DNA of 64,000 bases. It comes from Acholeplasmataceae bacterium (GTDB lineage Bacteria; Bacillota_I; Bacilli_A; Acholeplasmatales; Acholeplasmataceae). The notes below the pieces were generated by a model. It worked only from the letters and a program-made list of their open reading frames with translations. It made no database searches and was not told the origin of the DNA. Positions 2,437 to 27,955 of the stretch are shown piece by piece. Position 1 is the first letter of the stretch. Every line of letters begins with the position of its first letter. The stretch spans positions 1 to 64,000 of the forward strand of contig JAGYLU010000003.1 in NCBI GenBank assembly GCA_018400755.1, read 5' to 3'. A program made the translations under genes and the position numbers.

Positions 2437-3618
2437 ATGCAGGAACAAAAGCCAATCAATTGGATGTCTTTTCTAGGCGATGTGTTCAAATGTTCACTTA
2501 GTGCCTTTGGTGGGCCAGAGGCCCATTATGGGGTCTTTTCATCGGTTCTAGTCGATCAAAGAAAGTACTTGAGTGAACCCGAACTGACGGAAATGATTGG
2601 GGTCTACGCGCTTGTTCCCGGGCCCAGCAGCACCCAGACCATCACTGCCATCGGCTACCATGTCGGGGGCCCTGTCTTGGCATTTCTGACATTTCTCGTC
2701 TGGGCGTTTCCGGCCATCTTGATGATGGGACTCTTTGGTGTCTTCTTTGAGCGGGTCATCTCGAATGCGTCCTGGATGCCTTTGATCAGGTTCTTGCCGG
2801 CGGTGGCTATAGGGTTTATCTTCTATGCCGCGATCAGGCTGACACATAAAGTTGTCAAAGTCCGAAAAGATGTTTTGCTGTATATCGTCATGCTCATCTT
2901 GGCATTGCTTTTGGTGGGCCTATCGATGTGGGTGGTCCCGATCTTGCTTCTTAGTGGTGGATTGTTGGTTTTGTACCCGCACCTGAAGGACCGTCAAAGG
3001 TCGGAGGTCAAGATCAGACCCAAGTGGTTCATTCTCGTGGTGATTGTTGGTCTTGCGCTTTTGAATGAAGGTCTTAGGACATGGGTATCCGCGCCATGGG
3101 TCACGCTTTATACCTCGTTTTACAGGTATGGATACAGTGTCATTGGTGGTGGACAGATTGTTATTCCACTGATGATCCAAGACCTTGTCCAGACCCAATC
3201 ACTCATTTCATTGTCTGACTTTCTATCCGGTTATGCCATCGACCAAGCCATTCCCGGCCCATTGTTCAGCTTCGCGGCCTTTGTCTCATCAAGATCTTTT
3301 GCTAGTACCGGTTATGCTTTTTTGCTTGGGATGGTCGGAGGCTTGAGTATCTTCTTGCCGGGGATTCTCTTTGTCTATCTGATGTTTCCATTATGGACCT
3401 CTGTGAGAAAAATTCCCGTGATGAGACACTTTCTTTCCGGTGTCACCATCACAGCCGCCAGTCTGATTCTGATGACAGCCATCACCCAGGCGATTGAACT
3501 GCCTGTTGACTTCTTGACATACGCCATTGTGATCATCAGCACAGGCCTGCTTCTGACAAGGAAAGTGCCGGCACCAGCCATCGTGATGGCAGCTGCAATC
3601 CTAGGCTATCTTTTCTGA
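2437..3618 (+). CDS. chrA: Chromate transporter, CHR family, two-domain form
   Basis: Membrane protein of 393 residues matching the long (two-domain) CHR family of chromate/anion transporters. The N-terminal repeat has FGGPEAHYGVF, RKYLSEPELTE and ALVPGPSSTQT; the second half repeats the pattern with GGGQIVIPLM, DFLSGYAIDQAIPGPLF and SFASTGYAFLLGMVG. About ten hydrophobic segments are visible. Members export chromate or have unknown anion substrates, so the true substrate here is open. It is followed after 42 bases by a GNAT gene and then a ygjV-like gene, all in the same direction, suggesting one transcript. The start ATG is preceded by AGGACGTG. Confidence 0.85.
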   Translation: MQEQKPINWMSFLGDVFKCSLSAFGGPEAHYGVFSSVLVDQRKYLSEPELTEMIGVYALVPGPSSTQTITAIGYHVGGPVLAFLTFLVWAFPAILMMGLFGVFFERVISNASWMPLIRFLPAVAIGFIFYAAIRLTHKVVKVRKDVLLYIVMLILALLLVGLSMWVVPILLLSGGLLVLYPHLKDRQRSEVKIRPKWFILVVIVGLALLNEGLRTWVSAPWVTLYTSFYRYGYSVIGGGQIVIPLMIQDLVQTQSLISLSDFLSGYAIDQAIPGPLFSFAAFVSSRSFASTGYAFLLGMVGGLSIFLPGILFVYLMFPLWTSVRKIPVMRHFLSGVTITAASLILMTAITQAIELPVDFLTYAIVIISTGLLLTRKVPAPAIVMAAAILGYLF

Positions 3619-5129: not shown

Positions 5130-5663
5130 ATGAAACTATCAACCGGCATGAATGTCCCCATCCACAGCTACAAGCATGACCAGTCGCTTCATCGCATCTG
5201 GAAGAAAGCGGTTGTCCTCTATCAGGATGATGACCAACTGATCACCGCCAACAACCGGACCCGCGTCATCGAGCATGACGGACGCAGCTGGCATACCAGG
5301 GAACCGGCGATCTGCACCTTCTATGCCAGGTACTGGTTCAATGTCATCGCCATGTTCAAAAAGGATGGGATTCAGTATTACTGCAATCTCTCAAGTCCAT
5401 ACCTTTATGATGGGGAAGCCATCAAATACATTGATTATGATCTTGACATCAAGTTCTATCCCGATGGGTCCTTTCGTCTCCTTGATGAACGTGAGTATCA
5501 GGTCAATATGATGACGATGCATTATCCGGAAGAGATCAAGATGATCATCAAGGATCATCTGTCAATCCTGAAGACAATGATCATCAACCGCGAAGGTCCA
5601 TTCAATCAGGAACATGTCAAAGCGTCTCTTGAGCAATTTAGGAAGATGGGAAAAAGACGATGA
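5130..5663 (+). CDS. DUF402 nucleoside tri-/diphosphate phosphatase (Ntdp, YgaC-like)
   Basis: Protein of 177 residues with the DUF402 beta-barrel: LHRIWKKAVVLYQDDDQLI, TREPAICTFYARYWFNVIAMF, then FYCNLSSPY-like text (YYCNLSSPYLYDGEAIKYIDYDLD) with the acidic metal-binding YIDYDLDIKF motif near residues 109-118 and LLDEREYQ. Staphylococcal and Bacillus homologues hydrolyse nucleoside tri- and diphosphates. Length fits the family. Its last four bases overlap the start of the FUSC-like exporter (ATGA), so the two are translationally coupled. Substrate range here is assumed from the family. Confidence 0.85.
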   Translation: MKLSTGMNVPIHSYKHDQSLHRIWKKAVVLYQDDDQLITANNRTRVIEHDGRSWHTREPAICTFYARYWFNVIAMFKKDGIQYYCNLSSPYLYDGEAIKYIDYDLDIKFYPDGSFRLLDEREYQVNMMTMHYPEEIKMIIKDHLSILKTMIINREGPFNQEHVKASLEQFRKMGKRR

Positions 5664-6634
5664 TCACAACCCGCATGGTGACAACCTCTCTCAAAATGGG
5701 TCTTGTCTTCGTGGTGGCGAGCGTTCTAGCCCGTCTTTTTGGTTTGGAGGGCTGGCTGACCGGCGGGCTTTTGGCACTGCTTTCGATTCAACAGACCAAG
5801 AAAGACTCGGTGGTGCTCGCTACAAAAAGAGTGTTCAACGCTGCTTTGGGTCTATTGATGGCAACGGTTTTTTTCTTGCTATTTGGATATACATTTGCCG
5901 TGTTCGCGGTTTTTGTTTTGATCTTTGCATTTCTTTCCTGGGTCACAAAGACCCAGGAAGGGATTGTTCCAACCCTAGTCCTTGTGAGTCAGCTTTTGTT
6001 GCATGGTGACTATGACCTTGGGGTATTGTTGAATGTCAGCGGTCTGATGGGAATCGCCATCGTTGTGGCATTGAGTTTCAATGTGTTTTTCCCAAGTGGT
6101 GCGAAACGGGCGTTTCTGATCCACATGGAGGAAATCGATGCGCTGCTCAAAGATCACCTGTTTGTTCTTTCTTTGGCGTTTTCAGACCAAGATGGCAAAA
6201 AGGATTATGATCTTCACAGAAACCGGATGGATGTCCGTCTTGAGACGGTCATGAGGCAATCAAGACTGATGGACAAGGACCTTCTTTTTGACAATGACCA
6301 CCGTTATCTTTCCTATCTCGAGATGCGCCATGCCCAGATTAACGTCGCCAACCGCATGTATGATCTTGCCGGGCGGATCACCAAAAAACATCCGAATACT
6401 GAAGTGATTGCCGCATTCATCAAGGATTTGGTATCTGAGATTGGTCATTATGACCGGGCGAGCGAACTGAAAATCAGGCTTTCCGATATGCTTGAATCAT
6501 ACCGAAAGAGTGCGCTTCCAGAGACCCGAGAAGCCTTTGAAGTCCGGGCGGTGCTTTATCAGACCGTCTTTGAACTGGGTCAGTTTCTAGAAGAGAAGAT
6601 TCGCTTTCACGACCAATATCCGGTCTTTCCATAA
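5660..6634 (+). CDS. Aromatic acid exporter family membrane protein (DUF939/ArAE_1)
   Basis: Protein of 324 residues. The first 130 residues hold about five hydrophobic segments with the family pattern LEGWLTGGLLALLSIQQTKKDS and FAFLSWVTKTQEGIVPTLVLVSQLLLHG; the rest is a cytoplasmic alpha-helical domain (HMEEIDALLKDHL, YLSYLEMRHAQINVANRMYDL) of the DUF939 type, ending with a long helix bundle. These proteins are related to FUSC/ArAE efflux pumps; the substrate is unknown. It starts inside the stop codon of the DUF402 gene. No clear terminator follows. Confidence 0.8.
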   Translation: MITTRMVTTSLKMGLVFVVASVLARLFGLEGWLTGGLLALLSIQQTKKDSVVLATKRVFNAALGLLMATVFFLLFGYTFAVFAVFVLIFAFLSWVTKTQEGIVPTLVLVSQLLLHGDYDLGVLLNVSGLMGIAIVVALSFNVFFPSGAKRAFLIHMEEIDALLKDHLFVLSLAFSDQDGKKDYDLHRNRMDVRLETVMRQSRLMDKDLLFDNDHRYLSYLEMRHAQINVANRMYDLAGRITKKHPNTEVIAAFIKDLVSEIGHYDRASELKIRLSDMLESYRKSALPETREAFEVRAVLYQTVFELGQFLEEKIRFHDQYPVFP

Positions 6635-6826
6635 GACTGAATCTTTTTGTTGATATGATTGACATATAGGTAAAAAAGGCACATATGAAGCCTCAGGCAA
6701 GGGGCTTAGGTGATCCAAGAAGCAGCGGCTTTCAATCACTTGAATCCGATGATGTCATCTCAGAAGACCAACCACTGAGATTGGACCAAATCACCCACCA
6801 TGAAGCGTCAAATCCAGGAGGCCATC

Positions 6827-7753
6827 ATGTCAAGTTTCAAAGATCTGAGAATTGTGGATAATTTCTATCAGACAAGCAGTTTTTTTCCCATGCCAACCAT
6901 TCTAGTGAGTACGATTGATGATCATGGAAACACGAGTTTAGGTGCGTATAGCCTTTGTTTTCCATATTATGTCGCAGGGAAATCATATTACGCGATGATC
7001 TTGGAATGCAGAAACAGTTCGAATACAGCTCAAAACATTTTAAAAAGAGGAAAAGCGGCACTCAATTTCTTGCCGCATCACAAGACCTATTTCAAAGAGA
7101 CCGTCAGACTTGGATATCCCGGAGATTCATCTCTGGATAAAATGTCAAAAACAAGTTTGCATCTTGAAGAGGGCCTGGCAGGCATCGACGATCAGTCCAA
7201 AAGACCAAAGGTTGTCACAGAAGCCTTTCAAGTGTTTGAATGCACTTGGGTGAGCGAACTTGAACATGCTGATGAATGTCAGGCAGGGCAACTCGAAGGA
7301 TACGATCCCCCCTTTAAGGACTTTAACGGCATCACGAGCAAATTTGGGGCGCATTTCATCCTTAAGATCGACAAGATCATCATGAAGGAAAAATATCATC
7401 AAGCGATCATTGATGGTGTGAAAGCGAAGTCATTTCCTAAAATTCCGGTTGATTATGGGTATCGGGACAACACCCATTTTTGGTACACACCCTCAACCAA
7501 ATATTTCAGTGAACCCATTCCGACGAAAAAAGCAATGGATATATCAACCGTGAGATTCGCAGCCGATCGGACAGATCCTAATATCACATTCACCGATGAC
7601 GCATGTGAGAGGCTTGTCAAAGTACCAAGGATCTTCTTGAAAGCGGCGCTTGAGAGTTGCGCGAAATGGGCCAGAGAAAACGACGTGACCGAGATCACTT
7701 CCAAAGAAATGGATATCATCAATGACAAAAGGAATAAGGAAAAGAAATCCTAG
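6827..7753 (+). CDS. Flavin reductase-like split-barrel protein fused to a PCP_red domain
   Basis: Start chosen at ATG 6827 because AGGAGG (6816-6821) lies five bases upstream; an in-frame ATG at 6800 has no ribosome site. The 308-residue product begins with an FMN-binding split-barrel/flavin-reductase-like domain (PMPTILVSTIDDHGNTSLGAYS, AMILECRNSSNTAQNILKRG, VFECTWVSELEHADE, FILKIDKIIMKEKYH; about residues 1-200). After a linker rich in aromatic residues, residues about 248-295 match the short PCP_red domain found at the C-terminus of light-independent protochlorophyllide reductase subunit B: FTDDACERLVKVPRIF, then ALESCAKWARENDVTEIT. No bacteriochlorophyll gene is nearby, so a redox role with an unknown partner is more likely. 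Monocistronic. Confidence 0.75.
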   Translation: MSSFKDLRIVDNFYQTSSFFPMPTILVSTIDDHGNTSLGAYSLCFPYYVAGKSYYAMILECRNSSNTAQNILKRGKAALNFLPHHKTYFKETVRLGYPGDSSLDKMSKTSLHLEEGLAGIDDQSKRPKVVTEAFQVFECTWVSELEHADECQAGQLEGYDPPFKDFNGITSKFGAHFILKIDKIIMKEKYHQAIIDGVKAKSFPKIPVDYGYRDNTHFWYTPSTKYFSEPIPTKKAMDISTVRFAADRTDPNITFTDDACERLVKVPRIFLKAALESCAKWARENDVTEITSKEMDIINDKRNKEKKS

Positions 7754-20022: not shown

Positions 20023-20334
20023 ATGTATCACAATATCATCAAGGATGCTGTTCAATTGGATAAGGAAGCCCGCGACAAGCTCAAAGCCCTCAAAGAAAAA
20101 AAAGCAGGTCTCGATGATGTCATCAGCCAGACCCAGGCAGAACTTGAGACGGCTATGAAGGCTGAGATCAGAAGTGTCCATCAGGCCCAGAAGAAACAGT
20201 ATGAATCAGAAATCGCAAACCGCCGTGAGACGGCGCTCAAAACGTATGAAGATGCTTTGAAAGCCCTCGCCGAACAGTACTATGAGCATAAGGCTTTGTG
20301 GATTGAAGACATCTTCAAATCCATTGTTGAGTGA
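20023..20334 (+). CDS. ntpF: V-type ATPase peripheral-stalk subunit G/H
   Basis: First gene of the ATPase operon. ATG 20023 is preceded by GAGGAGG. The 103-residue product is a nearly continuous charged coiled coil (KLKALKEKKAGLDD, AELETAMKAEIRSVHQAQKKQYESEIANRRETALKTYEDALK), as expected for the stalk subunit that pairs with subunit E (NtpF in Enterococcus, AhaH in archaea). The assignment rests on coiled-coil character, size and position; sequence signature is weak in this family. Confidence 0.75.
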   Translation: MYHNIIKDAVQLDKEARDKLKALKEKKAGLDDVISQTQAELETAMKAEIRSVHQAQKKQYESEIANRRETALKTYEDALKALAEQYYEHKALWIEDIFKSIVE

Positions 20335-20350
20335 TGGAAAAGAGATCACC

Positions 20351-21388
20351 ATGAGCTCATTTTCAGCCAATGCCATCAGTGCGAAAGCCAAGGCGATGTA
20401 TGGGAAGTTTCTAAAAGAGGATCACTACGATCGGATGATCAAATTCACCACCCTTCCCGAACTGGTTGGTTTTTTGAAGAAACACCCGAATTATCAGGAT
20501 GTTCTAAGGGATGTGAACGAGGCATCAGTCCATCGCGGACAGCTCGAAGCCCTGATCAAGAAGAATGCGTTTGACAACATTCTCAGACTGATCAAGATCG
20601 CACCACCTGAGGAAGCTGACTTCTACCGTCTGAACATCGTTGTCCAGGAAAATGAGGTCGTTTTGGCGTTGATCAGGACGATGATCTCACAGGAGACCGA
20701 TGATATCAAGGGCAAGATCCCTTACTTCTTTGATGTCCATACCCCAGTTGACATGAAAGAACTTTTGAAGGCGGAGACCTTTGAGGATCTTTTGAATGGG
20801 GTCAGGAAAACCCCATATTATGAGATCTTGAAGCCCTACTCGACCAGGGATCCCCAAAATATTAGATATCTGGACATTGAACATGCCCTTGAGGCGTACT
20901 ACTATGATGAGGCGTTCAAGCGGATTGACCGGTTTTACACCGGGGCGTTGAACCGCGACCTGAAAGAGGTCTTTCAAACCAAGATTGAACTTGGAAACAT
21001 CACCAAGATCTACCGTCTTAAGAAGTTCTACCGCGCTGATCCTGGAACGATCAAGAGCGTGTTGATCACGACCCATTCTAGAATCTCAGAAAAAGAACTC
21101 GACCGGATCATCGCCATCGAGGATCCGGATGCCATCCTGACCTATCTTTCCTCATCCGAGTATGCCCTCTACACCAATGAGAAAGACTACGTCTACGTCG
21201 AATACTATGCTGGAAAGATCAGATATGATCTGGCCCGCAAGTTCATGTATTTTTCAACCCAAGTTCCAAAAACCTACATTGCATTTCTGACATTGTCCGA
21301 GATTGAAATCGACAATCTGACCAATATCATCGAAGGTATCCGGTATCAGGTTGACGAACAGGGCATCAGACAAATGCTGATCTACTGA
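20351..21388 (+). CDS. ntpC: V-type ATPase subunit C (d subunit, central-stalk socket)
   Basis: Start ATG 20351 (SSFSANAISAKAKAMYGKFL) is 16 bases after the preceding stop; the open frame extends back into the upstream gene but without a ribosome site. The 345-residue, mostly helical protein has the V-ATPase C/d features YDRMIKFTTLPELVGFLKKHPNY, DIEHALEAYYYDEAFKRI, LGNITKIYRLKKFYRAD, and the internal three-fold helical repeat. It couples the central rotor to the membrane ring. Followed 11 bases later by ntpI. Confidence 0.88.
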   Translation: MSSFSANAISAKAKAMYGKFLKEDHYDRMIKFTTLPELVGFLKKHPNYQDVLRDVNEASVHRGQLEALIKKNAFDNILRLIKIAPPEEADFYRLNIVVQENEVVLALIRTMISQETDDIKGKIPYFFDVHTPVDMKELLKAETFEDLLNGVRKTPYYEILKPYSTRDPQNIRYLDIEHALEAYYYDEAFKRIDRFYTGALNRDLKEVFQTKIELGNITKIYRLKKFYRADPGTIKSVLITTHSRISEKELDRIIAIEDPDAILTYLSSSEYALYTNEKDYVYVEYYAGKIRYDLARKFMYFSTQVPKTYIAFLTLSEIEIDNLTNIIEGIRYQVDEQGIRQMLIY

Positions 21389-21399
21389 GGAGGCTTGTC

Positions 21400-23319
21400 A
21401 TGGCCATCGCAAAAGTCAAATTGGTCGACATCACGTCGAACCGTGCCAATCTCGATCATGTCCTGACCAGGTTCATTGACCTGAAGGATTTTCACCCTGT
21501 GCTCGCATCGGAAATCATCGATCGGGTGCATGGTCTGACATCATTTGTTTCTGACAATCCATGTCAGCCATTGTTGCAGGAACTCGCCGAGATCGAAAAG
21601 AAATATGACCTGAATCTGCTCAATGATGAGCATCGCGACATCGAGTACAATTTCAGCCAGATGTCTGAGTACATCCTTGAAATCAAGGAGAGTCTATCAG
21701 AAGAGGTCACGAACATCAAGAATCTCGAGTCGGAGATCGCCAAGTATGAGGATGCACTTGTGCATGTCAAGAACATCCAAAGTCTAGAGATTCCTCTAGA
21801 TGATCTCTTTGATTGTGCTTATATCTATATCCGTTTTGGAAGATTGCCAAATGATTCGGTTGAAAAACTCCGTTTTTTCAGAAACAAACCATTTGTCTTC
21901 AAGGCGTTCAATTACGACCAGAACTACAACTGGTGTCTCTACTTCACCACTGAGGAATACAAACGGGAAGTCGACAATATTTTCTCATCTTTGTTTTTCG
22001 AACGTATTTTCATTCCTGATTTTGTCCATGGGACACCAACGGAGGCGATTGAATCGCTTGAGACCCAGATCAGGACCGCCCAGGAAAAAATCAATGGGTA
22101 TAAACGGGACATCTACGATATCTCTTGCGGGTGCAGTGACAAATTGTCCTGTATCAAAGGCGAATTGTTGTTTCTAAACCGCGTATTTGAGGCCAAGAAA
22201 TATGTTGTTGGTCTTGGTGATCGGTTCACCATCTCGGGTTTTGTCGAAGACAAGGATGTGGAGAACACCAAACGGATGTTTCATGGTCTTGAGGACGTTG
22301 AGATTGAGATTGGTGATGCCGATAGCGACAAACGGATCGTGCCACCAACGAAACTCAAGAACCGGTGGTTCTCCAGACCATTTGGTATGTTTGTCGAGAT
22401 GTATGGTCTTCCGGCTTATGGTGATATTGATCCGACGCCGTTTGTCGCGATCACATATGCCTTGCTGTTCGGTATCATGTTTGGTGATGTCGGACAAGGT
22501 CTGGTCTTGGCGCTCCTTGGATACCTCTTCTATAAGTGGAAGGGTATGCGGCTGGGTGCGGTCGGCGTCCGGATTGGATTGTCCTCGGCCTTCTTCGGAC
22601 TGCTCTATGGATCGGTCTTTGGAAATGAGGAACTATTGACCCCGTTTTACCGGGAAGTCTTGGGTTTTCAAAACTTGCCAATCCATGTCATGGATGCTGA
22701 TTCGACGATGATGCTGTTGATTGCCGCGATTGCCTTCGGGTCACTTCTGATTGTGATCTCAATGATCATGAATGTTGTGAAAATGGTCAGGAAGAAACAA
22801 ATCGTCGAGGTCATCTGTTCGCATAATGGGATCGCCGGATTGATGCTCTATGGGTATTTGCTGGTTGGAATCGCACTACAGATGGGCTTTGGCATTCCTG
22901 CTTTCAACTCGTTCTTGATTGCCTTCTTCGTCGGGATTCCCATGGTTCTGATCTTCATGAAAGAACCGCTTGAGCGACTCTATCATAAGCATCCCATGTT
23001 TCCTAATGGTATCGGAGGGTTCGTGGTTGAAGGGTTTTTCGAACTCTTTGAGATTTTGCTTTCCTATATCACCAACACGCTCTCGTTCCTCAGAGTCGGT
23101 GGCTTCCTTCTGGTTCATGCCGGGATGATGCTCGTTGTGATGAGTCTGATGGAGATGTCATCAGGCAGTGGGATTCTTGTCCTGGTACTTGGCAACATCT
23201 TCGTGATGGGCCTTGAAGGGATGATTGTCGGCATTCAGGTGCTTCGCCTTGAGTTTTATGAGATGTTTTCAAGATACTATGAAGGTAACGGCATTCAGTT
23301 CGTTGCCATGAACAAATAA
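21400..23319 (+). CDS. ntpI: V-type ATPase subunit I (a subunit)
   Basis: Protein of 639 residues with a soluble N-terminal half rich in coiled coil (LSEEVTNIKNLESEIAKYEDAL) and a C-terminal membrane half of about seven to eight segments. The key region NTLSFLRVGGFLLVHAGMMLVV has the conserved Arg that faces the rotor Glu in the ion path. PTPFVAITYALLFGIMFGDVGQGL and the adjacent GLLYGSVFGNEE are diagnostic of the family. RBS GAGGAGG-like (TGAGGAGGC) precedes the ATG. It is the stator of the ion channel. Confidence 0.93.
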   Translation: MAIAKVKLVDITSNRANLDHVLTRFIDLKDFHPVLASEIIDRVHGLTSFVSDNPCQPLLQELAEIEKKYDLNLLNDEHRDIEYNFSQMSEYILEIKESLSEEVTNIKNLESEIAKYEDALVHVKNIQSLEIPLDDLFDCAYIYIRFGRLPNDSVEKLRFFRNKPFVFKAFNYDQNYNWCLYFTTEEYKREVDNIFSSLFFERIFIPDFVHGTPTEAIESLETQIRTAQEKINGYKRDIYDISCGCSDKLSCIKGELLFLNRVFEAKKYVVGLGDRFTISGFVEDKDVENTKRMFHGLEDVEIEIGDADSDKRIVPPTKLKNRWFSRPFGMFVEMYGLPAYGDIDPTPFVAITYALLFGIMFGDVGQGLVLALLGYLFYKWKGMRLGAVGVRIGLSSAFFGLLYGSVFGNEELLTPFYREVLGFQNLPIHVMDADSTMMLLIAAIAFGSLLIVISMIMNVVKMVRKKQIVEVICSHNGIAGLMLYGYLLVGIALQMGFGIPAFNSFLIAFFVGIPMVLIFMKEPLERLYHKHPMFPNGIGGFVVEGFFELFEILLSYITNTLSFLRVGGFLLVHAGMMLVVMSLMEMSSGSGILVLVLGNIFVMGLEGMIVGIQVLRLEFYEMFSRYYEGNGIQFVAMNK

Positions 23320-23338
23320 CTTCAGGAGGATTATGAAG

Positions 23339-23791
23339 ATGTTAAACGCCATTGAAATCGTATTGCCACTGCTCATGCTTGTCTTGATCAGTATCCCCTT
23401 GATCAAAGTTTTCAAAGGAAACGCCACCCTCAGAGAAGCGAAATCGAGACTGCTTGTCCATATTTCCGGATTCTTCGGCATCATGTTGCTCGTTTTCGTC
23501 ATGCAGATGATCATTCGTCCTGATGTGATGGCCGCCGAAGGTGATGAGACCACGCTTGATCTCATGACTGGTACCCTTGCCCAAGGTTTGGGATTCATCA
23601 GTGCTGCCTTGGCAACCGGCATGTCGGCACTTGGTGCCGGGATCGCGGTTGCTGCCGCTGCCCCAGCGGCGATTGGCGCTTTTTCCGAAAACGAGAAGAA
23701 TTTCGGGAAATCCCTGATCTTTGTCGCCCTTGGCGAAGGGGTTGCCATTTATGGACTTCTGATCTCGATTCTCATCATCAACAAGCTTTAA
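23339..23791 (+). CDS. ntpK: V-type ATPase subunit K (proteolipid c subunit)
   Basis: AGGAGG at 23324-23329 suits ATG 23339 (nine-base spacing) better than the in-frame ATG at 23333. The 150-residue product has four membrane helices, but only the second hairpin is a classical c-subunit: GFISAALATGMSALGAGIAVAAAAP and then FVALGEGVAIYGLL with the ion-binding Glu at about residue 133. The first hairpin has no carboxylate. The Gln and Thr ligands of the Enterococcus sodium site are not seen, so I would guess proton coupling, but that is only inference. Clostridial relatives share this size and layout. Confidence 0.9.
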   Translation: MLNAIEIVLPLLMLVLISIPLIKVFKGNATLREAKSRLLVHISGFFGIMLLVFVMQMIIRPDVMAAEGDETTLDLMTGTLAQGLGFISAALATGMSALGAGIAVAAAAPAAIGAFSENEKNFGKSLIFVALGEGVAIYGLLISILIINKL

Positions 23792-23805
23792 AGGATGCGT
23801 CATTC

Positions 23806-24114
23806 ATGAAGTTTTTTCTGCTTTCAGACAATGTTGATTCGGAAGTCGGTATGCGGCTTGTCGGTATCGAAGGGGTTGTCGTGCATGAGCGCGATGCGTT
23901 TTTGAACGCCCTTGAGGCGGCTCTTGAGGATCCTGAGATTGCTGTCATCCTGATTACGACCAAACTTGTCGAACTTGCGCCAAATGTCATCTCGGAACTC
24001 AAACTGACTCAACCCAGGCAACTCATTGTTGAGATTCCTGACCGTCACGGAGAGACTGAGATCGGCGAAGCCATTGACCGATATGTCAGTGAAGCGATTG
24101 GCGTCAAACTGTGA
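23806..24114 (+). CDS. ntpG: V-type ATPase subunit F
   Basis: Small 102-residue Rossmann-like subunit of the central stalk: MKFFLLSDNVDSEVGMRLVGIEGV opens with the family strand-helix, then ALEDPEIAVILITTKLVEL and a charged C-terminal helix EIGEAIDRYVSEAIG. It sits between ntpK and ntpE. Called NtpG in Enterococcus nomenclature, F in archaea. Confidence 0.9.
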   Translation: MKFFLLSDNVDSEVGMRLVGIEGVVVHERDAFLNALEAALEDPEIAVILITTKLVELAPNVISELKLTQPRQLIVEIPDRHGETEIGEAIDRYVSEAIGVKL

Positions 24115-24125
24115 GGTGAGATCAC

Positions 24126-24731
24126 ATGGGATATTATAACGAAGACGAGCTGTACAGATATTTTGACAAGGCCATCCGCAAGGCATCAGAAAAACAACTG
24201 AAAGCCCTCCAAGATGAGATTGACTATATCTATCAGCGTGAGATCAAACGGATCAAAGAAGATATCCAGATCAAAAAACAACTCGAGACCGCAAAAAGGA
24301 TGCGCGAACTGAGGATCAAGTATCAGGAAGCGATCAATCAGATTGGGGTTGGCTATGATGCCAAACTGATCAATGAGAGACTCGAGATGTCAAAGGCTGT
24401 TTTTGACGCTGTCTCAAAGAAGGTTTTAGACTTTGTGGCATCAAAACAGTATACGGACTATCTCGAAGCGCGGATCAAGACGCTCAAGGGTCTTTTCAAA
24501 GATGAGGATGTCATCTTCTATGTCAAAGAAGGAGATCAGGTCGCCAAGGACTTCTTGACCGCATTGCCGTGTGGCACGTGCACGATCAAGGAGACCAACA
24601 CCATCCACTTCGGAGGGTTCGAGATGCATGTTCCGGCCCGTCGCCGGACGGTTGATCTGACGCTTGATGCTGCTTTTGAAGATCAAAAGACGTGGTTTTA
24701 TCACCATTCGAAGCTGTTTATCCGGACATAA
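24126..24731 (+). CDS. ntpE: V-type ATPase subunit E (peripheral stalk)
   Basis: Protein of 201 residues: an N-terminal charged helix (IDYIYQREIKRIKEDIQIKKQLE) that would pair with the G/H subunit, and a C-terminal globular domain (FVASKQYTDYLEARIKTLKG, TIHFGGFEMHV, RRRTVDLTLDAAFEDQK) matching the E-subunit fold. AGGTGAG precedes the ATG. It holds the catalytic head against rotation. Confidence 0.85.
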   Translation: MGYYNEDELYRYFDKAIRKASEKQLKALQDEIDYIYQREIKRIKEDIQIKKQLETAKRMRELRIKYQEAINQIGVGYDAKLINERLEMSKAVFDAVSKKVLDFVASKQYTDYLEARIKTLKGLFKDEDVIFYVKEGDQVAKDFLTALPCGTCTIKETNTIHFGGFEMHVPARRRTVDLTLDAAFEDQKTWFYHHSKLFIRT

Positions 24732-24742
24732 GGAGGGTCAAG

Positions 24743-26494
24743 ATGAAAGATAATGTGATCTATTCAATCAACGGCCCTGTCGTGACCGTCAAGGCCGCAA
24801 ACGTTTTTTCAATGCTTGAGATGGTCTATGTCGGTCGTGACCGACTGCTTGGAGAAGTCATTTCCATTTCCAAATCGATGACCACCATTCAGGTCTATGA
24901 ATCAACTACCGGACTGATTCCCGGCGAACCTGTTGTCGGCACCGGTGAACCCATTTCCGCCGAACTGGGACCAGGACTGGTCGCCAATATCTTTGATGGG
25001 ATCGAACGGCCACTCACGACAATCGCCGAAGGCGCAGGCATGTTTATTCCCAAAGGCAGTGACATCCAATCCATCGATGCCAAAGCGACTTGGGATGTCA
25101 CGATCAAGGTCAAGGAAGGTGACGTTTTGTCATCAGGCGACATCTACGCGACGACGATGGAGACCAAATCAATCGAACATCGGATGATGGTTCCAAATGG
25201 TATCCAGGGGACCGTCCAAAAGGTCATGCCAAGTGGCGTCTATCATCCCTACGATGTGATTGTGACGATCGTTGATGCCTATAAGAACATCCATGAGCTC
25301 ACCCTTGTCCAGCGTTGGCCGATCAAGGAACCACGACCGGTCAGAAGACGCTTGAACAATGCGGTGCCCTTGATCAGCGGACAACGTGTGATTGACACGC
25401 TCTTTCCGATTGCCAAAGGCGGAACCGCTGCTGTCCCTGGAGGATTTGGGACGGGCAAGACGATGATGCAGCATCAGTTCGCCAAGTGGTGTGATGCCGA
25501 TCTGATCGTCTATGTCGGGTGTGGTGAGCGCGGCAATGAGATGACGCAGGTGCTTGAGGAATTCAAGGACTTGATCGATCCCAGGACCAACAAACCTTTG
25601 ATGGAGAGAACGGTGTTGATTGCCAACACCTCAAACATGCCGGTGGCTGCCCGCGAAGCGAGCATCTATACCGGCGTGACGATTGCTGAATACTATCGTG
25701 ACATGGGATACCATGTCGCGTTGATGGCGGATTCGACCTCCCGGTGGGCGGAAGCGCTCCGGGAAATATCTGGACGTTTGGAAGAAATGCCAGCAGAGGA
25801 AGGGTTTCCGGCGTATTTGCCAAGCCGGATTTCTCAGTTCTATGAACGCGCTGGGTTTGTTGAGTCCTTGAATGGCAGTGAAGGCAGTGTCACGGTGATT
25901 GGTGCGGTCAGTCCCCAAGGGGCTGATTTCTCGGAACCCGTGACCCAGAACACGAAACGCTTTGTCAGGTGTTTCTGGGCGCTTGACAAGGAATTAGCCT
26001 ATGCCAGGCACTACGCGGCCATCAACTGGAATCTGTCCTATTCGGAGTACATCGGTGATCTGAGTGAGTGGTATGACACCAATGTCTCACCGAGTTTTTT
26101 GCAGTACCGGGCAAGGATTCGTGCGTTATTGGCACAAGAGACAACATTGCTCGAGATTGCCAAATTGATCGGAAGTGACGTGTTGCCTGATGACCAAAGA
26201 CTCGTCATTGAGATCGGCAAGGTCATCCGTTTGGGCTTCCTGCAACAAAACGCGTTTCACAAAGAGGACACCTATGTTCCGCTTGAGAAGCAGTTGTTGA
26301 TGATGGAAGCCATCCTGAGGCTATATGACCGGGCAAAGATTGTCATTGAGTCAGGTCGTTCACTGAATGTGCTGACGGAGACAGGTATATTTGACCGGAT
26401 TGTGAAAATGAAGTATGACATTCCAAATGATCATCTTGAGTTGTTCAAAGGGGTCATCAAGGATATTGACAAAACGATCAGCCATACCCACTAG
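24743..26494 (+). CDS. ntpA: V-type ATPase catalytic subunit A
   Basis: ATG 24743 follows AAGGAGGG; the open frame upstream of it belongs to the end of ntpE. The 583-residue product has the beta-barrel N-terminus (IYSINGPVVTVKAAN), the A-subunit-specific insert (ETKSIEHRMMVPNGIQGTV), Walker A PGGFGTGKTMM, the catalytic GERGNEM loop and MADSTSRWAEALREISGRL. These residues are intact, so ATP hydrolysis/synthesis is expected. It forms the A3B3 head with NtpB, encoded 15 bases downstream. Confidence 0.97.
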   Translation: MKDNVIYSINGPVVTVKAANVFSMLEMVYVGRDRLLGEVISISKSMTTIQVYESTTGLIPGEPVVGTGEPISAELGPGLVANIFDGIERPLTTIAEGAGMFIPKGSDIQSIDAKATWDVTIKVKEGDVLSSGDIYATTMETKSIEHRMMVPNGIQGTVQKVMPSGVYHPYDVIVTIVDAYKNIHELTLVQRWPIKEPRPVRRRLNNAVPLISGQRVIDTLFPIAKGGTAAVPGGFGTGKTMMQHQFAKWCDADLIVYVGCGERGNEMTQVLEEFKDLIDPRTNKPLMERTVLIANTSNMPVAAREASIYTGVTIAEYYRDMGYHVALMADSTSRWAEALREISGRLEEMPAEEGFPAYLPSRISQFYERAGFVESLNGSEGSVTVIGAVSPQGADFSEPVTQNTKRFVRCFWALDKELAYARHYAAINWNLSYSEYIGDLSEWYDTNVSPSFLQYRARIRALLAQETTLLEIAKLIGSDVLPDDQRLVIEIGKVIRLGFLQQNAFHKEDTYVPLEKQLLMMEAILRLYDRAKIVIESGRSLNVLTETGIFDRIVKMKYDIPNDHLELFKGVIKDIDKTISHTH

Positions 26495-26509
26495 GAAAGG
26501 AAGTCGCTC

Positions 26510-27955
26510 ATGAATCTTCAATACATCGGACTAGAGGAAATCAACGGCCCCCTCGTCTTTATTGATGACGTCGAAGGTGTCGGAAACGAAGAGATGGTGG
26601 AGATCAGGCTCGATAACGGAGCGGTCCGTTACGGACGGGTTGTCCAGATCGATGGCAAACGCGTCGCCATCCAGGTGTTTGAAGGCACGAACGGCATCTC
26701 GTTAGAGAACACACGTGCCATTTTTACCGGTCATCCGGTCGAGGTGGGGCTATCAAAAGAAATTCTTGGACGGACCTTCAATGGCTCAGGTAAGCCAATT
26801 GACGGACTTGGAAATGTCTATGTGGACGAACGACGCGACATCAATGGATTACCGCTCAATCCTGTTTCCAGAGTCTATCCCAGAGATTACATCCAAACCG
26901 GGATCAGTAGCATTGATGCGCTCACAACCCTCATCAGAGGACAAAAACTGCCCATCTTCTCAGGTTCAGGCATGCCCCATAACGAACTGGCTGTCCAGAT
27001 CGTGAAACAAGCAAAAATCGCTGATGCTGACGGTGATAATTTTTGTATCGTCTTTGCCGCGATGGGTGTCAAAAATGATGTTGCCCGCTATTTCAGACGC
27101 TCCTTCGAGGAAGCTGGTGTCATGAACCGGGTGGTCATGTTTTTGAATCTTTCGAACGAACCGATCATCGAACGGATCCTGACTCCGCGCTTTGCCTTGA
27201 CGGTCGCGGAGTACCTGGCGTTCAAGCATCATATGCATGTCTTGGTCATTTTGACCGATATGACAGCGTATTCGGAAGCGCTCCGTGAGTTCTCGTCTTC
27301 CAAGGGTGAGATTCCCGGCCGTAAGGGTTATCCAGGGTACCTCTATTCCGACCTCGCCTCGCTATACGAACGGGCTGGCATTGTCCGCGATACCAAAGGA
27401 TCAGTGACTCAGATTCCGATTCTGACCATGCCCAATGATGACATCACCCATCCGGTTCCGGATCTGACCGGATACATCACCGAAGGGCAAATTGTCTTAA
27501 GTCGAGATCTTGTTCAAAAAGGGCTTTACCCTCCCGTCGGTGTCTTACCGTCTTTGTCCCGTCTGATGAAAGATGGTATTGGTGACGGATACACCAGAAA
27601 AGACCATTCAGCGGTCGCGAACCAACTCTTTGCTTCGTATGCCCAAGTGCAAGAAATCCGTAGTCTGGCCTCTGTCATCGGGGAAGATGAGTTGACCACA
27701 ATTGACCGCCAGTACATTGAATTTGGCCGCCAGTTCGAGACGCATTTCATCAATCAGGGCTTCGATACCAATCGAAACATCGTTGACACACTTGATTTGG
27801 GATGGGATCTGCTTTCAATTCTTCCCAAAGATGAGCTCAACCGGATTGATGATGCGGTCCTGGATCTTCATTACAGCCATGAACGGGCAGTCGAACGGTT
27901 CCATATTGTCACCAAGCCGATCATCAAAGGACTTAAAGGAAGTGTGTCAAGATGA
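26510..27955 (+). CDS. ntpB: V-type ATPase subunit B (non-catalytic head subunit)
   Basis: Protein of 481 residues, slightly longer than the usual 460. Features: [19 protein letters not shown], the altered P-loop position [14 protein letters not shown] instead of a Walker [15 protein letters not shown], and [35 protein letters not shown]. The C-terminus is extended past the usual helical bundle ([19 protein letters not shown]). Overlaps ntpD by ATGA. Confidence 0.96.

Follow-up and report, generated by a model that had tools for sequence, protein, structure and literature searches.

What a tail resembling the PCP_red domain (PF08369) does on a flavin-reductase-like barrel is the question raised by a gene in the 64,000-nucleotide stretch of Acholeplasmataceae DNA analyzed here (the window). 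The C-terminal domain of BchB/ChlB contacts protochlorophyllide. Searches of the genome from which the window comes (2.23 Mb, completeness rating 95%) for PF00148 (nitrogenase-like oxidoreductases) and for PF00490 (ALAD, a family of tetrapyrrole synthesis) were both negative, which agrees with the non-photosynthetic host assumed in the original prediction; as ALAD was not matched, no tetrapyrrole synthesis is apparent in this genome. The gene lies in a forward-strand ORF at 6800-7753, in which an in-frame ATG at 6800 would yield 317 aa. The N-termini of the homologues read MSSFKDLR, matching position 6827, and hence 6827, the start predicted originally, was retained as the better one. The protein had no match in NCBIfam at E ≤ 1. 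The features of the locus are listed in Table 1.

Table 1. Coordinates of the gene, its domains and the upstream gene in the window.
Feature	Position	Strand	Details
Flavin-barrel/PCP_red CDS	6827..7753	+	308 aa; start is the one common to homologues
Split-barrel (flavin-reductase-like) domain	6887..7501	+	Residues 21-225; AlphaFold model, Foldseek/VIA-align and conserved residues
C-terminal helical domain	7532..7750	+	Residues 236-308; helices 239-249, 257-261, 268-284 and 292-307 in the full-length model
Divergent PCP_red domain (very probable)	7589..7714	+	Residues 255-296; ungapped alignment to PCP_red positions 1-42; profile-profile and 2kru match
Aromatic acid exporter, upstream gene	5660-6634		ArAE_1, E 2.6e-22

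The Pfam family Flavin_Reduct (PF01613) matched the window protein at 17.1 bits (E 0.0062), below the curated cut-off of 27 bits, and was likewise seen below threshold, at E ≤ 1, in 39 of the 40 aligned family members. DUF447_N, another FMN barrel family, was present at E ≤ 1 in 37 of the 40 members, and a profile of 40 members found no solved structure in the PDB at E ≤ 0.1. The AlphaFold model of the full-length protein, obtained from 40 sequences, had a mean pLDDT of 82.9. Foldseek matched this model to the nitroreductase NbaA (4z85), which ranked at the top, as well as to flavoredoxin 3bnk and the FMN-binding protein 1eje, with E-values from 2.7e-9 to 7.5e-9. Alignment of the full model with flavin-reductase/flavoredoxin structures by VIA-align gave Z-scores of 14.7-16.5 over 156-176 residues (residues 5-224), the best Z of 16.5 extending over 165 residues, and the modeled barrel thus has the split-barrel fold. 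The sub-threshold Flavin_Reduct matches and the structural matches together sustain the FMN-type split barrel that had been predicted. The residues R62, N63, S65, N66, T67 and C139 were invariant in all 40 rows of the alignment, and H176 was retained in 38 of the 40 members. The RNSSNT segment was aligned by phmmer, weakly (E 0.22), near the DHHTARNI segment of 1eje; from this alignment and its position, it is a putative flavin phosphate loop.

The rows returned by VIA-align for the whole model were filled by the barrel alone, and therefore the tail (residues 236-308) was predicted and searched separately. AlphaFold, with 36 sequences, predicted the tail alone as a separate helical unit (mean pLDDT 90.9) and not as a part of the barrel, which is consistent with the separate C-terminal domain of the original prediction. 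In the Foldseek search with the tail model, 2kru ranked third (E 0.32, with 22% identity, a TM-score of 0.75 when normalised by target length and an rmsd of 1.4 Å across 51 alignment columns), and VIA-align of the tail with 2kru gave a Z-score of 7.9 with an rmsd of 3.4 over 59 residues. The entry 2kru is an NMR structure, solved for the PCP_red domain of subunit B of a light-independent protochlorophyllide reductase. The tail has the fold of this solved domain, an agreement that is supportive only, as AAA+ lids score alike: the lids of RuvB/RuvBL reached Z-scores of up to 8.7 against the tail model. The Foldseek matches of the tail were mostly AAA+ lids, and the E-values were weak for every match. 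Since AAA+ lids match equally by Z-score, the fold of the tail alone does not single out PCP_red. A search of solved structures with the tail sequence gave nothing relevant at E ≤ 10 and did not recover 2kru.

PF08369 was the sole Pfam family listed for the C-terminus of the window protein, with 14.2 bits for a 97-residue piece and 15.4 bits (E 0.02) for 73 residues, against a cut-off of 32.5 bits. The predicted match to PF08369 therefore failed by the Pfam cut-off, whereas it was borne out by profile-profile comparison. Among the families found by hmmscan of the tails, PCP_red was the commonest (13 of 36 members at E ≤ 1), the runner-up family being found in 3 of 36; with the full-length proteins as query, PCP_red appeared at E ≤ 1 in just 1 of 40 members. 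A direct search of the window's genome with PF08369 gave no match at E ≤ 0.001, and the tail therefore lies outside the reach of the Pfam model. The first set of PCP_red domains was of the Chloroflexota type and comprised 21 of 30 loci, the rest being off the expected offset or carrying insertions; addition of 29 of 30 further loci gave a set of 50 domains from two phyla. Against the 50 domains, hhalign returned a probability of 93%, P 3.4e-7 and a score of 34.4, with 42 of 45 columns aligned ungapped and 31% identity to the aligned sequence, while the best of 500 column shuffles scored 17.8. Against the 21 domains, it returned 86%, P 4.7e-6 and a score of 29.9, or 47%, P 3.1e-5 and a score of 27.7 under another setting, and none of 1,000 column shuffles (500 per side) exceeded 17.3. 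Together with the 1.4 Å match to 2kru, the score of 34.4 upholds the PCP_red-like C-terminus proposed from the sequence, and the window tail is very probably a divergent PCP_red domain.

The scan of genome contigs confirmed at least 581 loci of this family. The best 80 of these were retained. Of 84 homologues studied, among them one from Lachnoclostridium phytofermentans, 40 entered the family alignment and 36 the tail alignment; homologue L079 was excluded for a stop codon. The tail was fused to the barrel in at least 82 of the 84 homologues. As for the two tail-less cases, L058 was an artefact of start choice, its tail being seen in the tail alignment, and L079 had the stop codon in frame. 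The single in-frame stop in the latter (L079:4765-5676) may be due to an error in the sequence or else mark the copy as broken. The nearest named relative by protein, among the matches listed, was an Acholeplasmataceae MAG with 83% identity. The full-length search found the gene in 4 of 61 relatives, its own genome counted, and the tail profile was positive in 14 of 120 relatives after exclusion of two weak matches. Two genomes of the same genus, 67% and 97% complete, were without the gene. In the phylum of Lachnoclostridium, the family was found in 1 of 299 genomes, that one being the search centre itself, and no relative was found in the plasmid collection. The family thus occurs widely but in patches, a pattern suggestive of transfer or loss. 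A literature search limited to open-licence papers gave nothing on the flavin-barrel/PCP_red architecture, and the passages available from PMC7242693, PMC5443842 and PMC7948495 hold nothing on the role of the PCP_red domain. The fusion of a flavin barrel with PCP_red is real and uncharacterised, and it is not astonishing.

The distribution of PCP_red itself accounts for this last statement. Among 398 genomes of the Lachnoclostridium phylum, 48 had a PF08369 match above cut-off, as had 24 of 151 genomes of the phylum taken for Chloroflexota; in the window's own phylum it was found in none of 392. Of 30 PCP_red loci from the Lachnoclostridium phylum, 29 were readable, and 21 had a CGGC string in the same frame. 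Pfam analysis of 18 PCP_red proteins identified as partners CGGC (6), NIR_SIR (5, mostly with Fer4), Usp (3), a nitrogenase-like core (2) and radical SAM/SPASM (1), with none in the remaining protein. In the Lachnoclostridium phylum the fusions were mostly with CGGC and some with NIR_SIR/ferredoxin domains, and Usp and radical-SAM proteins were further partners in Chloroflexota. One of the three Usp-PCP_red proteins had a weak PNPOx_N match, and one had four PCP_red copies. Several Chloroflexota-type open frames of 650-904 aa (L114, L115, L116 and others) had several PCP_red copies each; L114 had two Usp matches, four PCP_red and a weak rubredoxin-like match. The frame at L111, with weak PNPOx_N, Usp and PCP_red, is possibly a second fusion of a split barrel with PCP_red. 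In view of the 48 genomes and of the CGGC, NIR_SIR with 4Fe-4S, Usp and radical-SAM/SPASM partners, fusion of PCP_red outside photosynthesis is common. Tying the domain to the protochlorophyllide pocket of BchB/ChlB, as was done originally, hence proved too narrow, as most of the PCP_red proteins read in the Lachnoclostridium phylum are CGGC fusions, and surprise at a fusion in a non-photosynthetic organism finds no support where PCP_red is a common add-on of redox proteins. Although its name and description tie it to protochlorophyllide, a match to PCP_red need not imply tetrapyrrole chemistry; it is an ordinary part of bacterial redox proteins, whether or not the bacterium makes chlorophyll.

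The genes next to the family were counted at 73 of 81 loci, 8 being dropped because the gene fell outside the family cluster in the ORF calls. In 8 of the 73 loci, a tetR gene was located directly upstream on the same strand, at a distance of -3 to 43 bp. TetR_N was the commonest upstream family (8 of 68), and the commonest downstream families reached 4 of 65 each, very long ORFs at L038, L040 and L063 having been excluded from 68. A conserved operon was rejected, as no neighbor other than tetR recurred frequently. The gene downstream in the window codes for an OmdA/YdeI-like protein; a heliorhodopsin gene was the next downstream gene in 2 of 65 family loci. Elsewhere in the window, genes of a V/A-type ATP synthase (C/AC39, I, A and B subunits) are located at 20282-27955, and a chromate transporter gene (2437-3618) has as its neighbor a gene at 963-2114 whose product belongs to the bacterial archaeo-eukaryotic release factors (baeRF family 6, E 1.8e-24).

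The tail could be merely a helical domain of the AAA+-lid/histone-like type that has come to resemble PCP_red by convergence, as the RuvB/RuvBL lids that equal 2kru by Z-score, the AAA+ lids that make up most Foldseek matches and the sub-threshold score of the Pfam PCP_red model would allow. Sequence profiles separate the two, however. The tail scored 34.4 with PCP_red in hhalign, whereas 16 RuvB lids (of 20 loci), a control of the same fold, scored 12.3 (P 0.11), and none of the 1,500 column shuffles rose above 17.8; the homology at profile level therefore exceeds both chance and the same-fold control. When the 1,065 ORFs of 81 loci were searched with an HMM of seven CGGC-type PCP_red sequences, the window gene came out on top (E 3.6e-5), and family members made up 39 of the 40 matches at E ≤ 0.05. 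The HMM of 21 Chloroflexota-type sequences was weaker, with family members as all four of its matches at E ≤ 0.05. In the reverse direction, a search of the Lachnoclostridium phylum (299 genomes) with the tail profile gave 13 matches at E ≤ 0.05; one was the family's own protein in the genome at the search centre, 7 of the other 12 coincided with PF08369 sites above cut-off, and the remaining 5 were weak (E 0.001 to 0.05). One weak match was located in a 545-residue frame judged from its sequence to be phosphate-transporter-like. Convergence of fold is consequently very improbable.

The role of the protein admits two further explanations. It could be a detoxification flavoprotein for aromatics or quinones, induced through TetR and acting on aromatic or nitro substrates, in which the tail merely stabilises the dimer. 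The tetR genes upstream, the aromatic acid exporter encoded next to the window gene and NbaA as the top Foldseek match are in favor of such a role, but among 68 loci an exporter (ArAE_1_C) adjoins the gene in a single case, the window itself, and the neighbors show no common substrate-related gene; this role is rather unlikely. The protein could also handle heme or other tetrapyrroles, barrel and tail binding a scavenged tetrapyrrole and reducing or degrading it. The split-barrel fold is also used by heme-binding HugZ/HutZ-type proteins, and the better-known NIR_SIR proteins use siroheme. The conserved H176, the location of PCP_red at the C-terminus of a nitrogenase-like reductase in BchB/ChlB-type proteins (locus L180) and its presence on NIR_SIR proteins and on one radical-SAM protein agree with tetrapyrrole handling. 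Against it stand the genome without an ALAD match, the PCP_red proteins of the Lachnoclostridium phylum, which are mostly CGGC proteins without a known tetrapyrrole, and the first 25 families of immediate neighbors on each side, which included no heme uptake or degradation family. Tetrapyrrole handling is thus quite improbable.

Sequence comparison and structural models establish the two-domain architecture, show that it is conserved throughout the family and relate the tail to PCP_red. Overall, the protein is probably an FMN-dependent split-barrel oxidoreductase with the PCP_red tail as a docking or lid module; the functional part of this reading is more tentative and falls somewhat short of probable. 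The presence of PCP_red on other redox proteins and the genome without a PF00148 or ALAD match support this reading. The barrel would dimerise and bind FMN through the conserved RNSSNTxxN loop, and the FMN would be reduced by reduced nicotinamide or by an electron carrier. The tail, which is small, helical and of the AAA+-lid/histone-like type, may dock a redox partner or close over the flavin site. The protein may thus be an accessory redox protein of anaerobes, sometimes TetR-controlled, acting outside tetrapyrrole synthesis; the survey of 68 upstream and 65 downstream genes showed no conserved redox partner. It is conceivable, as a conjecture on which we would not insist, that PCP_red serves anaerobes as a docking or lid module for redox proteins in general, be they flavin barrels, CGGC, NIR_SIR/ferredoxin, radical SAM, Usp or nitrogenase-like proteins; the window family would then be an unrecognised flavin-dependent branch of it. 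If so, a shared redox partner or ligand is yet to be found, and whether PCP_red tails have such a common partner or ligand is a testable question. New here is a divergent, unannotated version of PCP_red on a flavin barrel.

In comparison with known systems, the barrel is closest in fold to the Flavin_Reduct/flavoredoxin FMN-binding split barrels (PF01613; 3bnk, 2d5m, 1eje and 3e4v), which share it with residues 5-225 at Z-scores of 14.7-16.5, and its conserved T/N segment may correspond to their flavin phosphate loop. It differs in having ∼230 residues as against 180-190 in flavoredoxin-type chains, which, judged by length, leave no room for a C-terminal domain such as that of the window protein, and the latter is below the Pfam cut-off. 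The DUF447 FMN-binding barrels (PF04289; 2nr4, 2ptf and 3b5m) match the model less well than the flavoredoxins (Z 11.1-12.3) and are absent from the Pfam families of the window protein at E ≤ 5. The PCP_red domain of ChlB/BchB (PF08369; 2kru) shares an ungapped profile match of 42 columns with the tail, in which F replaces W at position 1 and FLK replaces FVR. Unlike in ChlB/BchB, the host protein is not nitrogenase-like: PF00148 is absent from its Pfam families at E ≤ 5, and the protein is therefore not a member of BchB/ChlB. The nearest PCP_red variants found were the CGGC + PCP_red proteins of Clostridia, which have the same small domain and occur in bacteria where the carriers are mostly not photosynthetic types; in these proteins PCP_red is N-terminal and its partner is the cysteine-rich CGGC (PF08821), in place of the flavin barrel found here.
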